From the IMG/VR virus record IMGVR_UViG_3300032081_001308, positions 1 through 35,555 of that record: a stretch of 35,555 bases of DNA; one strand, written 5' to 3'. The position numbers were made by a program, and so were the translations under genes. The DNA is from a virus. The notes under the pieces were generated by a model. It searched no databases and had not been told where the DNA came from. It saw nothing but the letters and a program-made list of their open reading frames with translations. Shown here in pieces: positions 8,244 to 19,266 of this stretch; position 1 is the stretch's first letter; each line of letters opens with the position of its first letter.

Positions 8244-8512
8244 CCGCCGCCGGCAAGCCCTGCCCGGTGCCCGGCTGCGAGGGCATCCAGAAGCCCGGCA
8301 AGCTGATGTGCCTGGCGCACTGGCGCCGCGTGCCGAAGCCGCTGAAGGACGCTGTCTGGGAGACGTGGCGCGCCTATGAGGCCGCCGCCAAAGACCGCCG
8401 GTCCTATAGCGACCCTGATCGTTCCAACGAGTTCTTCGCCCGACGCCGCGCCTATCTCTACGCGGCCGACCAGGCCGTGAAGGCTGTTTCACCCCCGAGT
8501 AAAGGAGACTGA
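8240..8512 (+). CDS. Small zinc-binding-type hypothetical protein
   Basis: 90 residues. The N-terminus carries CPVPGCEG, then MCLAHWRRVP, a C-x4-C-x10-C-x2-H pattern that suggests one zinc ion. The rest is helical and basic/aromatic (AVWETWRAYEAAAKDRR, FFARRRAYLYAADQAV). Small proteins with this kind of N-terminus occur in many phage early regions; the function is unknown. Confidence 0.65.
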   Translation: MTAAGKPCPVPGCEGIQKPGKLMCLAHWRRVPKPLKDAVWETWRAYEAAAKDRRSYSDPDRSNEFFARRRAYLYAADQAVKAVSPPSKGD

Positions 8513-8513
8513 A

Positions 8514-8957
8514 ATGCCGTTTGAAGCCATCGATCCGCGCCCAGCAGCGTCCGCCAAGGTGCCGGCCGACGCCATCCTGATCAGCACCCGCCAGTCCGGC
8601 CTGGGCGCCCGCAAGAAGTATGCGCAGATGCATTTCGGCGAAGCCATCGCCGGCAAGCTGGGCATCAAGGATGGCGTCAAGCTGGCGCTGGCCTGGGGCA
8701 CTGGCGCCGATGAAGGCCGGCTGAAGCTGGAAGTCATTGAGGGCGCCGGCCATGCCGTGAAGCGCTACCGGGGCAAGGGAACGCTCTACACCACCATCGG
8801 CACCATGCCGGGCTGGTACAGCGGCGAGACGGTGAAGCGCGGGCGGTGCCATGCGCAGATCCTCGAAGCGACGCGGGGGGGGGCACCCTATGCCGTGCTG
8901 CGCATGCCGCGCGCCTTCGTGGACCGCGTCGTGGATCTCGACGAACAGGGCGCCTGA
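8514..8957 (+). CDS. Early hypothetical protein with poly-G tract
   Basis: 147 residues, with AAAGGAG just upstream of the ATG. Beta-rich sequence (AILISTRQSGLG, KLALAWGTGADEGRLKLEVIE, YAVLRMPRAFVDRVV). No family recognised. The gene contains nine consecutive G residues at 8875-8883, encoding Arg-Gly-Gly, which could promote replication slippage. Confidence 0.65.
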   Translation: MPFEAIDPRPAASAKVPADAILISTRQSGLGARKKYAQMHFGEAIAGKLGIKDGVKLALAWGTGADEGRLKLEVIEGAGHAVKRYRGKGTLYTTIGTMPGWYSGETVKRGRCHAQILEATRGGAPYAVLRMPRAFVDRVVDLDEQGA

Positions 8958-9714: not shown

Positions 9715-10049
9715 CCCCGGCCGAGCGCAAGATCGTCGAGGAGCTGATCCGCGTCACCTACCTGGTGGCGCGCCAGCAGCGCAAGCCGCGCCATCGGGAC
9801 ATGCTTATCCGCGCGGCCGCCGTCGCTCAAGCGGTGCTGGATGGGGCCGTGCTGGACGGCGTGATGCCTGCCGCCGAGGCCTCCTACGAGGCACCGAAAA
9901 TTAAACGCCCTGCCGCCGATCCGCTGGAGCAGCTGCGCGCCGCCCTTGCCGCCTGCGATGCCGCTGGCCTGCCGGGTGGCGTTGTCGCCGCCGAGGCCTA
10001 TCGCGGTTTCCGACTCGACACATTGACCGAACAGGAACCCGTTCGATGA
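9711..10049 (+). CDS. Early hypothetical protein
   Basis: 112 residues from ATG 9711, overlapping the preceding stop; earlier in-frame starts are shadows. Helical throughout (MTPAERKIVEELIRVTYLVA, then MLIRAAAVAQAVLDGAV, then LEQLRAALAACDAAGL). No family recognised. Confidence 0.55.
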   Translation: MTPAERKIVEELIRVTYLVARQQRKPRHRDMLIRAAAVAQAVLDGAVLDGVMPAAEASYEAPKIKRPAADPLEQLRAALAACDAAGLPGGVVAAEAYRGFRLDTLTEQEPVR

Positions 10050-10357
10050 CCCCCAATCCCTACATTGCCGGCTTCGTCGATGGCTTTGCCGTTGGATTTG
10101 TGCGCGCCCGGCTTGAGCTGGCGCGGCGCGGTGTCGACTGCGCGGCTTGTGGCCATGCAATCCATCCTTCCAGCATGGACCGGCTGCTGTGCGCGCGCTG
10201 CAGGGATTTGACTGATGGTGCGGCCAGACGCGAGAGCGAAGCCGCACGTCAGCGCGCCCTGGCTGACGGAAGCATGCCTATGCCCGGTGTCCTGGACGGC
10301 TATGGGCTCTCGCGCCTGCAGGAGGTCTATTCGGCCAAGCGGAGGCTGCCGCGATGA
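10046..10357 (+). CDS. Small C4 zinc-finger hypothetical protein
   Basis: 103 residues, ATGA-coupled. CAACGH at about residue 31 and CARCRD about 17 residues later form a C2-C2 zinc ribbon. The N-terminus (YIAGFVDGFAVGFVRARLELA) is a hydrophobic helix with glycines every few residues and could be membrane-associated. The ribbon resembles DksA/TraR-type fingers but lacks their acidic coiled-coil tip. Confidence 0.6.
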   Translation: MTPNPYIAGFVDGFAVGFVRARLELARRGVDCAACGHAIHPSSMDRLLCARCRDLTDGAARRESEAARQRALADGSMPMPGVLDGYGLSRLQEVYSAKRRLPR

Positions 10358-11079
10358 CCGCCGCCAAGAACGCCCGCGCTTCGACCGGCCAGAAGCTTTT
10401 CCCGGCAATCCATGCCTGTCGCAAGCAGGTCGCCGGCCTCGCCGAGGAAGAGGTCTGGCGCGACTATCTGCGCCAGCTCACCGGCCGGGACAGCCTGCGC
10501 AAGATGACGGGCGCGCAGCTCGGCCGCGTGCTGGACGATCTGCACAGCAAGGGTGCCCGCAAGGCTCCACCGAAGCGGGCCTTCAAGGGTCGTGCGCGGA
10601 AGCTGGCGGATGGCGACCAGGCGCAGAAAATCCGCGCGCTCTGGCTGGCGCTCTGGAACCTGGGCTGTGTCGCCGATTCGTCGGAAGAGGCACTGGCCGC
10701 CTTCGTGAAGCGCCAGGCCCAGGTCGATGCCCTGGAATGGCTGCCGGCTGACAAAGCGCATTCGGTGATCGAGGCGCTGAAAGGCTGGCTGGCGCGCCCT
10801 GCTGCTAAGGGCGGCGGCGGTGTGTCCTGGTCCGGCCAGTGGCCGTTCGGCGACCGGCAGGCCGTGGTCGAGGCGCAATGGCGCCGGCTGCTGGATCTCG
10901 ACGCCATCGCACAGCCGCATATCGGCTGGTGGGACATGGCCTATCGCATGCGCGCCGCGCCGGCCGCGCCGCAGTTCTACACCACCAGGGACTGGGATTC
11001 GGTGATTGCCGTTTATGGCAAGTTCATCCGCAAGGCGCTGGCCAAGGCGCAGATCGGCCGGAAGGACGCCGATGGCTGA
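10354..11079 (+). CDS. gemA: GemA family (Mu gp16-like, DUF1018) regulator
   Basis: 241 residues. The N-terminal half matches GemA/DUF1018: KLFPAIHACRKQVAGLAEEE, then LRQLTGRDSLRKMTGAQLGRVLDDLHSKG, then the linker ALWLALWNLGCV. In Mu the gp16/GemA protein affects host gene expression and DNA gyrase-related functions, and it precedes mor, as here. The C-terminal half (about 130-241; SVIEALKGWLARPAAKGGGG, YRMRAAPAAPQFYTTRDWD) does not look like the core family and may be a lineage extension. Confidence 0.8.
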   Translation: MTAAKNARASTGQKLFPAIHACRKQVAGLAEEEVWRDYLRQLTGRDSLRKMTGAQLGRVLDDLHSKGARKAPPKRAFKGRARKLADGDQAQKIRALWLALWNLGCVADSSEEALAAFVKRQAQVDALEWLPADKAHSVIEALKGWLARPAAKGGGGVSWSGQWPFGDRQAVVEAQWRRLLDLDAIAQPHIGWWDMAYRMRAAPAAPQFYTTRDWDSVIAVYGKFIRKALAKAQIGRKDADG

Positions 11080-11503
11080 CGACGCGTCCACCATAGACAG
11101 GGCCACCATTACCAGCCTGCCGCCGGTCCTGGCGGAGATCGCGCGCAACCTTGGCGTCGGCGTGGCGCTGGGCTTCGCACGGGAGCTGGGCGGCACCAGG
11201 CTGTCGATTCCGAAGTCGCCGACACCGGCCTTCGTGCGAAAGGTTGGCGGCGAGCCTCTGGCCCTGTATCTATGCGGCAAGTATCCTGACGACGAGCTGG
11301 ACGTGCCCATCGGCCCTTACAGCTCGTTGCGCCAGCAGCGGCGGGCCTTCCGGGAGCGTGTCGCCAGCGCCCCGGCCAGCGCCTCGGAGATCGCCCGTGC
11401 GGAGGGCATCACCATCCGCACGGTGCGCCGGTATCGTGCATCCGACCGCGATGAACCGCGCCCGCTGCCACTTTTCCCAGACCTCCCATCCGGCAACCGG
11501 TGA
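11072..11503 (+). CDS. mor: Mor/C family late transcription activator
   Basis: 143 residues from ATG 11072, overlapping GemA. The N-terminus has the Mor dimerisation element (LPPVLAEIARNLGVGVALGF, then GGTRLSIPKSP). The C-terminus has an HTH (SASEIARAEGITIRTVRRYRA, about 109-129). Mu Mor and C are paralogues that bind dyads just upstream of -10 elements to switch on middle and late transcription. Only one family member is seen here, so it would have to serve both roles. Its stop codon lies inside the palindrome at 11499-11515, which is its most likely binding site. Confidence 0.85.
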   Translation: MADDASTIDRATITSLPPVLAEIARNLGVGVALGFARELGGTRLSIPKSPTPAFVRKVGGEPLALYLCGKYPDDELDVPIGPYSSLRQQRRAFRERVASAPASASEIARAEGITIRTVRRYRASDRDEPRPLPLFPDLPSGNR

Positions 11504-11524
11504 CAGTCTGTCACCCCTGTTTTG
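11499..11524 (+). promoter_or_regulatory. Candidate late-promoter activator site upstream of endolysin (Plys position)
   Basis: Perfect 17-base palindrome with a one-base centre (GTGACAGtCTGTCAC plus one flanking pair), followed by CCTGTTTTG. The same 26 bases with one mismatch recur at 19241-19266 ahead of the protease gene. Mu places its C-dependent Plys and PI promoters before the equivalent two genes. No good -35 is visible, as expected for a Mor/C-dependent promoter. The transcription start cannot be fixed by eye. Confidence 0.6.
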
Positions 11525-11551
11525 ATGTCCCGCCGCGCGCATCGTGACGCC

Positions 11552-11632
11552 TGAGCGAGGCCGGGCATCTCCAGCGTATGCGTCAAGCACACGTCCTGCC
11601 CGGACCTCGCTCAACCCGTAGCGAGGTGGGCA
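11552..11632 (+). promoter_or_regulatory. Two alternative hairpins in the endolysin leader
   Basis: Arm 1 (11552-11567, TGAGCGAGGCCGGGCA) pairs with arm 2 (11597-11613) over 16 base pairs with one bulged A. Arm 2 can instead pair with arm 3 (11620-11632, AGCGAGGTGGGCA) over 13 pairs with a 2-base bulge. Arm 3 contains the endolysin Shine-Dalgarno GAGG (11623-11626). The two folds exclude each other: pairing 1-2 frees the ribosome site and pairing 2-3 hides it. No T-run follows, so it is not a terminator. Confidence 0.6.
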
Positions 11633-11633
11633 G

Positions 11634-12038
11634 ATGGACCAAGGCACTCCCGATTTCTGGCGCTGGCGCTTCTTCACGGAGAAGGAGCTGCGCGACGTCT
11701 CGACCGGCGGCATCAAGATCGTGCCGGCCTTCCTCGACCGGCTGGACAAGCTGCGCGAAGCCTTCGGCGCGCCCCTGACGCCGACCAGCTTCTACCGCGA
11801 TCCAGAGCACAACGCCCGCGTCTCGCACACTGGCGCCACCGGCCCGCACACCACCGGCCGCGCCATCGATCTGCGGATCATGGGCCGTGACGTGTACCGG
11901 CTGGTCCCGCTGGCCATCAATCTGGGCTTCACCGGCATCGGCCTTTCCCAGAAAGGCGATCACCGGTCCCGCTTCATTCACCTGGACGATCTGCCGGACG
12001 GGCCATCCTGCCCGCGCCCGTGGATCTGGACCTACTGA
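11634..12038 (+). CDS. Endolysin, peptidase M15A family
   Basis: 134 residues. The zinc-peptidase pattern is visible: TSFYRDPEHNARV, then the metal-binding HTTGRAIDLRI (His and Asp), then GDHRSRFIHLDD with the third ligand His. This is the peptidase M15_3 fold (D-Ala-D-Ala carboxypeptidase or endopeptidase-like), which cuts peptidoglycan stem peptides. It lacks a signal peptide, so it depends on the holin-like protein next door for access to the cell wall. GAGGTG is its ribosome site, inside the switchable hairpin. Confidence 0.9.
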   Translation: MDQGTPDFWRWRFFTEKELRDVSTGGIKIVPAFLDRLDKLREAFGAPLTPTSFYRDPEHNARVSHTGATGPHTTGRAIDLRIMGRDVYRLVPLAINLGFTGIGLSQKGDHRSRFIHLDDLPDGPSCPRPWIWTY

Positions 12039-12048
12039 GGAGGTGCTG

Positions 12049-12348
12049 ATGACCACCACCAAGAAGAGCTGGCTGCCCGACCGAAAGGTGCTGGCATCCG
12101 GCGTGTCCGGTGTCCTGACCTGGCTGATCGGTCTGCTGCTGATCCAGCTGGGCGTCGAGATGCCGGCCGAGGCGCTGGGCGGCATCGTCGCCGGCGTCAT
12201 GGCGCTGGTCGCCTATGCCGTGCCGCCCTCGGTTCGCGACGTCATCGAGCGCGTGGACGACACGCTGAAGGAGGCCTTTGCCGAAGAGGTGCAGGCGAAA
12301 CGGGCATCGGCTGATGCCCTGGTAAAGGCGGCCGGCAATGTCTCGTGA
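12049..12348 (+). CDS. Holin-like membrane protein
   Basis: 99 residues from ATG 12049 with GAGGAGG upstream. Two membrane segments at about residues 17-33 (SGVLTWLIGLLLIQLGV) and 40-58 (ALGGIVAGVMALVAYAVPP), then a charged helical tail (VIERVDDTLKEAFAEEVQAK). Size, topology and position directly after the endolysin suggest a holin, but no specific family could be confirmed by eye. Confidence 0.65.
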   Translation: MTTTKKSWLPDRKVLASGVSGVLTWLIGLLLIQLGVEMPAEALGGIVAGVMALVAYAVPPSVRDVIERVDDTLKEAFAEEVQAKRASADALVKAAGNVS

Positions 12349-12592
12349 CGCAGAGCACAAGCCGCTGCCAGTTGCCGGCTATCGCCCTCAGCCCGCCACC
12401 GCCGTGGAGCTGGTGAACAGCACCAAGCGCATGGAGGAGACCATCCTGCGGCTGCTGGACAAGATGGCCGGCTCTCCCGAATACGACCAGCGCTGGCTGG
12501 CCATCGGCCGCAGCCAGATCGAGCAGGGCTTCATGGCCGTGAACCGCTCGATCTTCCGGCCCGAGCGCGTGAAGCTGGAAGGAGAAGAGTGA
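12338..12592 (+). CDS. Acb2/Tad1 hairpin-domain protein, candidate anti-CBASS/anti-Thoeris sponge
   Basis: 84 residues, two predicted helices. The pattern GYRPQPATAVELVNSTKRME, then DQRWLAIGRSQIEQGFMAVN and RSIFRPERV (D50, R52, W53, Q63, G64, M66, R70, P75) resembles the small phage helical-hairpin family that includes Acb2 and Tad1-type proteins. These bind the cyclic nucleotide signals of CBASS or Thoeris and so block host defence. It overlaps the holin-like gene by 11 bases, so it would be made with the late lysis genes rather than early. The assignment is from recalled pattern only; ligand is unknown. Confidence 0.55.
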   Translation: MSRDAEHKPLPVAGYRPQPATAVELVNSTKRMEETILRLLDKMAGSPEYDQRWLAIGRSQIEQGFMAVNRSIFRPERVKLEGEE

Positions 12593-18915: not shown

Positions 18916-19237
18916 GGCGTCCGGTCCGCTGCACCAGCCGTGCCGCCCAGTGTCGGCTATGAGGTGCAGCCCGTCCGACACTTGCCCAATCAATATAACA
19001 CCACCCAGACCGCACAGGAAGCCCACTGACGGGCGCTGGCCGATCAACGCCCCTTCGGGCGTGCGATTCCTTTAAACGGCAATTTGAACGCGCTCTGAGC
19101 GATTCAGGGCAATGCTGAGGGCCGCCTGCCGAGAGGGGGTGACAGCGCGCCGGCATCGCGGCATGCTGTGCCCACATCCGCCACCGGACCAGGTCCGGCT
19201 TTCCGGCCGATGCAATCCCGATCACACGACCCGCCGA
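18916..19237. other. Noncoding gap with interleaved inverted repeats
   Basis: About 320 bases without a convincing gene, unusual in this tightly packed genome; the open frames here have no ribosome site and poor composition. The left part has two perfect 8-base inverted repeats that interlock: GCTGCACC (18928-18935) with GGTGCAGC (18963-18970), and AGTGTCGG (18949-18956) with CCGACACT (18975-18982). A 15-base palindrome CCGGACCaGGTCCGG lies at 19184-19198. A half-site GGGGTGACAG lies at 19136-19145. Confidence 0.5.
19047..19075 (+). terminator. Possible terminator after the head protein gene
   Basis: Six-pair GC-rich stem ACGCCC/GGGCGT (19047-19062) with CTTC loop, followed about eight bases later by TTT. 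The T-run is short, so termination is only a possibility; it would end the packaging operon before the protease promoter. Confidence 0.35.
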
Positions 19238-19266
19238 AGGGGTGACAGCCTGTCACCCCTGTTTTG
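19238..19266 (+). promoter_or_regulatory. Candidate late-promoter activator site upstream of protease gene (PI position)
   Basis: Perfect 23-base palindrome with a one-base centre (left arm AGGGGTGACAG, 19238-19248), followed by GTTTTG. The 26 bases from 19241 match 11499-11524 with one difference. It lies 84 bases before the likely TTG start of the protease gene, where Mu has its C-dependent PI promoter. A stem-loop followed by TTTT could also be read as a terminator; the exact recurrence at the two late-promoter positions favours a protein-binding site. Confidence 0.6.

Follow-up and report, generated by a model that had tools for sequence, protein, structure and literature searches.

The inverted repeat that lies just 5' of the endolysin gene in this Mu-like phage (hairpin A, 11552–11613) is read here, with confidence slightly better than even, as the 5'-terminal stem-loop of an activator-dependent late lysis mRNA, one that in this phage also holds the endolysin ribosome-binding site (RBS) open. 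Positions refer to the window, that is, the whole stretch of 35,555 nucleotides analysed (IMG/VR record IMGVR_UViG_3300032081_001308). Pairings, energies and the effect on RBS opening were computed, as were the sharing of the promoter element and the conservation in a close relative. Activator binding, start site and biological role we infer, and events would run as follows: the Mor/C-type activator encoded at 11072–11503 would bind the dyad at 11499–11515; transcription would begin just before arm 1 of the hairpin; arms 1 and 2 would fold together as the first RNA made; and hairpin A would hold arm 2 off the endolysin Shine-Dalgarno sequence, leaving the RBS open. The hairpin would then act constitutively as an anti-sequestor with ON as its default state, and not as a switch under regulation. 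A late-promoter and leader model for RcapMu-type Mu-like phages thus replaces the stand-alone RNA switch of the initial annotation; it comprises a Plys/PI dyad that would differ between phage groups along with its activator, and late mRNAs with 5' hairpins.

The late-promoter element and the predicted start

The window belongs to a Mu-like phage, in which a Mu transposase, an AAA protein, GemA, Mu Gp27 and a Mu portal were identified. A gene for a Mor/C-type late transcriptional activator of 143 aa (11072–11503, +; PHROG 836 'late transcriptional activator', E 2.2e-20) adjoins the late genes, and its stop codon is overlapped by a perfect dyad, GGTGACAG-T-CTGTCACC, at 11499–11515, followed by CCCTGTTTTG. 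Dyad and CCCTGTTTTG together form a Plys-like element (11499–11524, +), a putative activator site. The lysis genes follow: an endolysin of 134 aa in the peptidase M15_3 family (11634–12038, +; Pfam PF08291, E 7e-11; PHROG 894 endolysin, E 2e-18), then a small protein with a hydrophobic stretch (12049–12348, +), an ORF read from the sequence that lacks a Pfam match and is by position a probable holin. The only other copy of the element in the window, PI-like and with the same dyad (19238–19260), is at 19238–19266 (+), 5' of the gene-I (protease) region.

More distant phages have an element in corresponding positions. RcapMu (JN190960) has precisely two copies of CCCCCGGACCTGTGTCCGGGGGTTTTGC, one separating the Mor-like gene from the lysozyme gene and one immediately 5' of the protease gene. 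The dyad there is a different one, CCCGGAC-N3-5-GTCCGGG, shared by RcapMu, RcWaterboi and five IMG/VR phages; RcWaterboi and the five carry 2–4 copies each, the reversed control pattern none, and in the copies inspected T-runs mostly come next. Where inspected in G003–G007, RcapMu and RcWaterboi, the copies mark the starts of late operons, with a spacer length that is fixed inside each genome and varies between genomes. In the window itself, a CCGGAC-CAG-GTCCGG palindrome with the RcapMu-type core (19185–19199) lies ~50 nt 5' of the second GTGACAG dyad, as it does in the close relative; possibly it is the relic of an older activator site.

Activator C serves lys, I, P and mom in Mu (PMC4461284), and at Pm the Mor-bound dyad is centred at −43.5 (PMC4390567). 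The likeness to Mu Plys/PI (C) and Pm (Mor) extends to a Mor/C-family gene followed by the lysis operon, an element shared by lys and I, and a T-run in the spacer (PMC4461284, PMC4390567). The dyads differ from those of Mu in being longer and perfect, GTGACAG-N-CTGTCAC here and CCCGGAC-N3-5-GTCCGGG in the RcapMu type, each a presumed binding site. By its position 5' of both the lysis operon and gene I, beside a Mor/C-family activator gene, the dyad is a late-promoter element with putative activator binding. A role as terminator is less likely, for the element stands 48 nt before the lysozyme gene of RcapMu and again before gene I.

Applying the Mu Pm spacing to the dyad centre at 11507 places the predicted late start within 11546–11552 (+), near 11550 with several bases' uncertainty; the −10 of this predicted promoter is weak. 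Hairpin A would therefore be transcribed first and stand at the very beginning of the lysis mRNA. RcapMu has 48 nt from the end of the dyad to the start codon and this phage 118 nt, an excess that roughly matches the 62-nt hairpin in length. No T-run follows hairpin A, and it was rejected as a Rho-independent terminator.

Two exclusive pairings and access to the endolysin RBS

The three arms and two mutually exclusive pairings of the initial annotation are all present where it put them. Hairpin A joins arm 1, TGAGCGAGGCCGGGCA (11552–11567, +), to arm 2, TGCCCGG-a-CCTCGCTCA (11597–11613, +), over the 16 bp claimed, with a 1-nt bulge; within its 29-nt loop (11568–11596, +) a short stem, GCGU.AUGC / GCA.ACGU, is nested. 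In hairpin B, CTGCCC-gg-ACCTCGCT (11596–11611) pairs instead with arm 3, AGCGAGGT-GGGCAG (11620–11633, +); the pairing was correctly seen, but its 13 bp become 14 (8 + 6, with a 2-nt bulge). Arm 3 does carry the endolysin Shine-Dalgarno sequence, GAGGTG at 11623–11628, 5 nt from the ATG at 11634, so B covers it, and AGCGAGG and GGGCA are common to arms 1 and 3, the imperfect direct repeats described. An upstream ORF from the ATG at 11578 was discarded, having no Shine-Dalgarno sequence and being out of frame with the endolysin.

The folding check proposed for the region bore out its stability: the leader 11552–11646 has a z of −3.63, and 0/200 dinucleotide shuffles are equally stable. Hairpin A alone folds at −38.3 kcal/mol, which places it in the top 0.2% when every 62-nt window of this GC-rich genome is ranked: strong, but not unique. 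The initial annotation called the sequence too long to arise easily by chance; for B, the duplex of arm 2 with the downstream sequence (−25.9 kcal/mol) is unlikely, yet possible by chance, being equalled by 0.35% of random 33-nt segments of the + strand. These numbers touch a very improbable alternative, in which the inverted repeat works at the DNA level, as a second site for a protein downstream of the promoter, or is a product of chance, or of hitch-hiking after a recent segment exchange. That 66 of the 35,494 windows in a GC-rich genome fold as well as hairpin A agrees with it; the composition-corrected z of −3.6 argues against it.

The effect of arm 1 on the RBS (11620–11636) is large. 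In an RNA that starts at 11551 and includes arm 1, opening the RBS costs 9.0 kcal/mol, an ordinary value beside the 4.0–19.5 kcal/mol at other genes of the same phage; in one from 11568, without arm 1, the cost is 20.4 kcal/mol. Shuffling arm 1 gives a mean of 20.9 kcal/mol, with 0/200 shuffles as low as the real value. By calculation, then, arm 1, and with it hairpin A, is an anti-sequestor of the endolysin RBS in this phage.

A control of ~11 kcal/mol over RBS opening is also what a regulated switch would exploit, one in which a protein, the ribosome or an alternative start removes arm 1, so that B forms and the endolysin is delayed until late. The B pairing, which beats 99.6% of random segments, fits that reading, as does the progressive closing of the RBS when the start is moved 4–9 nt into arm 1 (14.6 kcal/mol at 11556, 17.9 at 11560). 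Against it, the A form of the full leader (−44.6 kcal/mol) is ahead of the B form (−40.0) by 4.6 kcal/mol and would fold first; the Rfam search gave no relevant match, its sole match being a snoRNA, taken as chance; among the window genes scanned, none matched an RNA regulator of the Com type in Pfam; and the late promoter alone would account for the timing. We regard this switch as unlikely. Since A is favoured over B and would be transcribed first, the default would be ON, and no trigger that flips A to B was found. What stands of the translation switch in the initial annotation is thus the exclusive pairing and the power of arm 1 to set the RBS open (9.0) or closed (20.4), not its regulation. 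A variant, in which choice of start or a loop-binding protein sets endolysin translation, with starts a few bases into arm 1 yielding a closed RBS, is decidedly unlikely.

Two known systems come close. The T4 lysozyme gene e has RNA structure at the RBS adjoining a late promoter (PMC3014915), and both phages thus have RNA structure at a lysis-gene RBS beside a late promoter. In T4, however, long early transcripts have their RBS closed by the upstream arm, which late ones lack, whereas the upstream arm of the present leader has an opening effect on the RBS and is found immediately 3' of the predicted late start. By T4-like logic, read-through transcripts would sequester the RBS through sequence of the promoter region, and late-initiated ones would escape. 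Read-through RNA from 11500 does cost more to open (12.3 versus 9.0 kcal/mol for the late RNA), with extra outer pairs; yet shuffled upstream sequence has the same effect (mean 12.7, 49% as high as 12.3), and sequestration peculiar to upstream-initiated RNA, the mark of gene e, is therefore lacking. This is the least probable of the readings considered. In Mu mom, a translation-inhibition structure in the late leader keeps the gene OFF until Com binds (PMC6483171). The likeness is that of a late leader in a Mu-like phage where a second structure decides access to the RBS; the differences are a default that is ON, an endolysin as the target and, among the genes scanned, none recognised as Com-type. 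If the anti-sequestor favoured here holds in cells, it would be a case of phage lysis control with a polarity opposite to that of T4 gene e.

Conservation in the close relative and in wider leaders

The only close relative known, L004 (IMGVR_UViG_2531839096_000004), has identical dyads at the same two places. Over 11499–11617 it differs from the window at 2/119 positions, both outside hairpin A and its loop; arm 1, arm 2 and even the loop, whose unpaired positions are free to vary, are identical (0/62 differences). Fourfold sites of the coding genes have diverged at 10/88 positions in Mor, 19/85 in the Gp27-like gene and 36/113 in GemA (Fisher p against the hairpin: 0.005, 2e-5 and 2e-8). The adjacent Mor gene has diverged by only 11% at such sites. 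Conservation of hairpin A beyond this coding gene argues against the DNA or chance alternative; the loop being conserved as well as the stem, and the want of covariation, argue for it, and what is conserved could be a DNA feature or the outcome of recent exchange. For the favoured model too it is a weakness that one close relative with zero change in hairpin A provides no covariation.

Hairpin B has fared differently. Arm 3 carries three substitutions in L004, all breaking B pairs, and arm 2 has no compensating change; a 4-nt length difference also precedes the start codon. The duplex between arm 2 and the downstream sequence falls to −17.6 kcal/mol, which 16% of random segments equal, that is, chance level. 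The initial annotation had named absent conservation of the pairing as grounds for giving up its proposal, and for B this is the outcome. The covariation it asked for is likewise divided: A is conserved, without internal changes that could covary, and B is broken. With the alternative pairing eroded to chance level in the only close relative, the timing switch is unproven.

The gene downstream has changed as well. At the endolysin position L004 encodes a 161-aa protein (8442–8927, −), directly 3' of the leader that is conserved, which makes this a case of gene swapping within the lysis cassette; this protein has no Pfam match and no evident similarity to the M15 peptidase. An equivalent of the small ORF at 12049–12348 again lies 3' of it. 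Promoter and hairpin A being conserved over a different endolysin, both travel together over the swapped gene; on the sequences compared, the conserved feature is the promoter with its 5' hairpin, not the switch. Opening the RBS of L004 costs 9.5 kcal/mol with arm 1 and 7.7 without; removal of arm 1 leaves it unclosed, and the anti-sequestor role is absent there, which counts against the favoured model.

This last result speaks for a narrower alternative, in which hairpin A serves the 5' end of the mRNA only, through protection from decay, RNase III processing or protein binding, and has no part at the RBS. The hairpin is placed at the predicted 5' end, and both stem and loop are unchanged in a relative whose RBS stays open when arm 1 is removed. 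We consider this alternative unlikely, since the anti-sequestor effect follows directly from the sequence in the present phage. In the favoured model, the older, conserved role of hairpin A probably concerns the 5' end of the mRNA as well, for instance its stability or the binding of a protein, with RBS opening in addition here.

Leaders of wider relatives bear on this model in both directions. In relatives of the RcapMu type, the Plys leaders are short, and no hairpin reaches significance in them (five leaders, combined p 0.07), a further point against it. In its favour, their PI leaders open with a hairpin close to the predicted start that extends almost to the start codon; the four distinct sequences give p values of 0.022, 0.002, 0.001 and 0.005 (combined 5e-7), as per-sequence fold significance only, the alignment having set the stems out of register for covariation. 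With four PI leaders so equipped, a 5' hairpin on late mRNA is not foreign to the phage group, though it is no constant feature of Plys. In six of the PI leaders (L055, L056, L058, L062, L064 and L065) a hairpin of 7–9 bp persists while the sequences differ, and its 3' arm is often purine-rich (GGAC, GGCGGA), a few nt from the start codon; this arm may hold the Shine-Dalgarno sequence.

A reading of the geometry as a lysis-timing switch, though possible, lacks support: B is not conserved and no trigger is found, L004 keeps A over a different endolysin, and the leaders at this place in more distant relatives are short and without hairpin A. For the timing of lysis, the predicted activator-dependent late promoter immediately 5' offers a simpler explanation.

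Broader searches yielded nothing closer. The 1.4-kb region had no match among phages at the nucleotide level, an endolysin protein scan of IMG/VR gave no relative, and neither the promoter pattern nor the Mor protein was found in GTDB genomes. Three hits were dismissed as chance: a Paracoccus plasmid match (H45, E 0.04), which covers arm 1 without arm 2 and falls in an open stretch flanked by metabolic genes; a similar-looking stem on an unrelated phage contig (L051); and a 22-nt Achromobacter phage match (E 4). Portal relatives L068–L073 have no recognisable Mor gene or dyad and carry dispersed palindromes of their own; in the distant L071–L073 these are many, of the form CCCCCTCTCC...GGAGAGGGGG.

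Two small genes in the window may be recorded. Just 5' of GemA, 10046–10357 encodes a 103-aa four-cysteine protein with two CxxC pairs, considered as a Com-type zinc-finger candidate, whose only match, to the zinc motif PF18256, is below cut-off; GemA of L004 is likewise preceded by a protein with two CxxC pairs. In the lysis region, the 84-aa product of 12338–12592 is a candidate anti-CBASS protein of the cyclic-nucleotide sponge kind: Pfam assigns it the Acb2/Tad1 hairpin domain (E 2.4e-15), and it partially matches the PDB chains called p26 (8h2j, 8ixz; E 1e-4).
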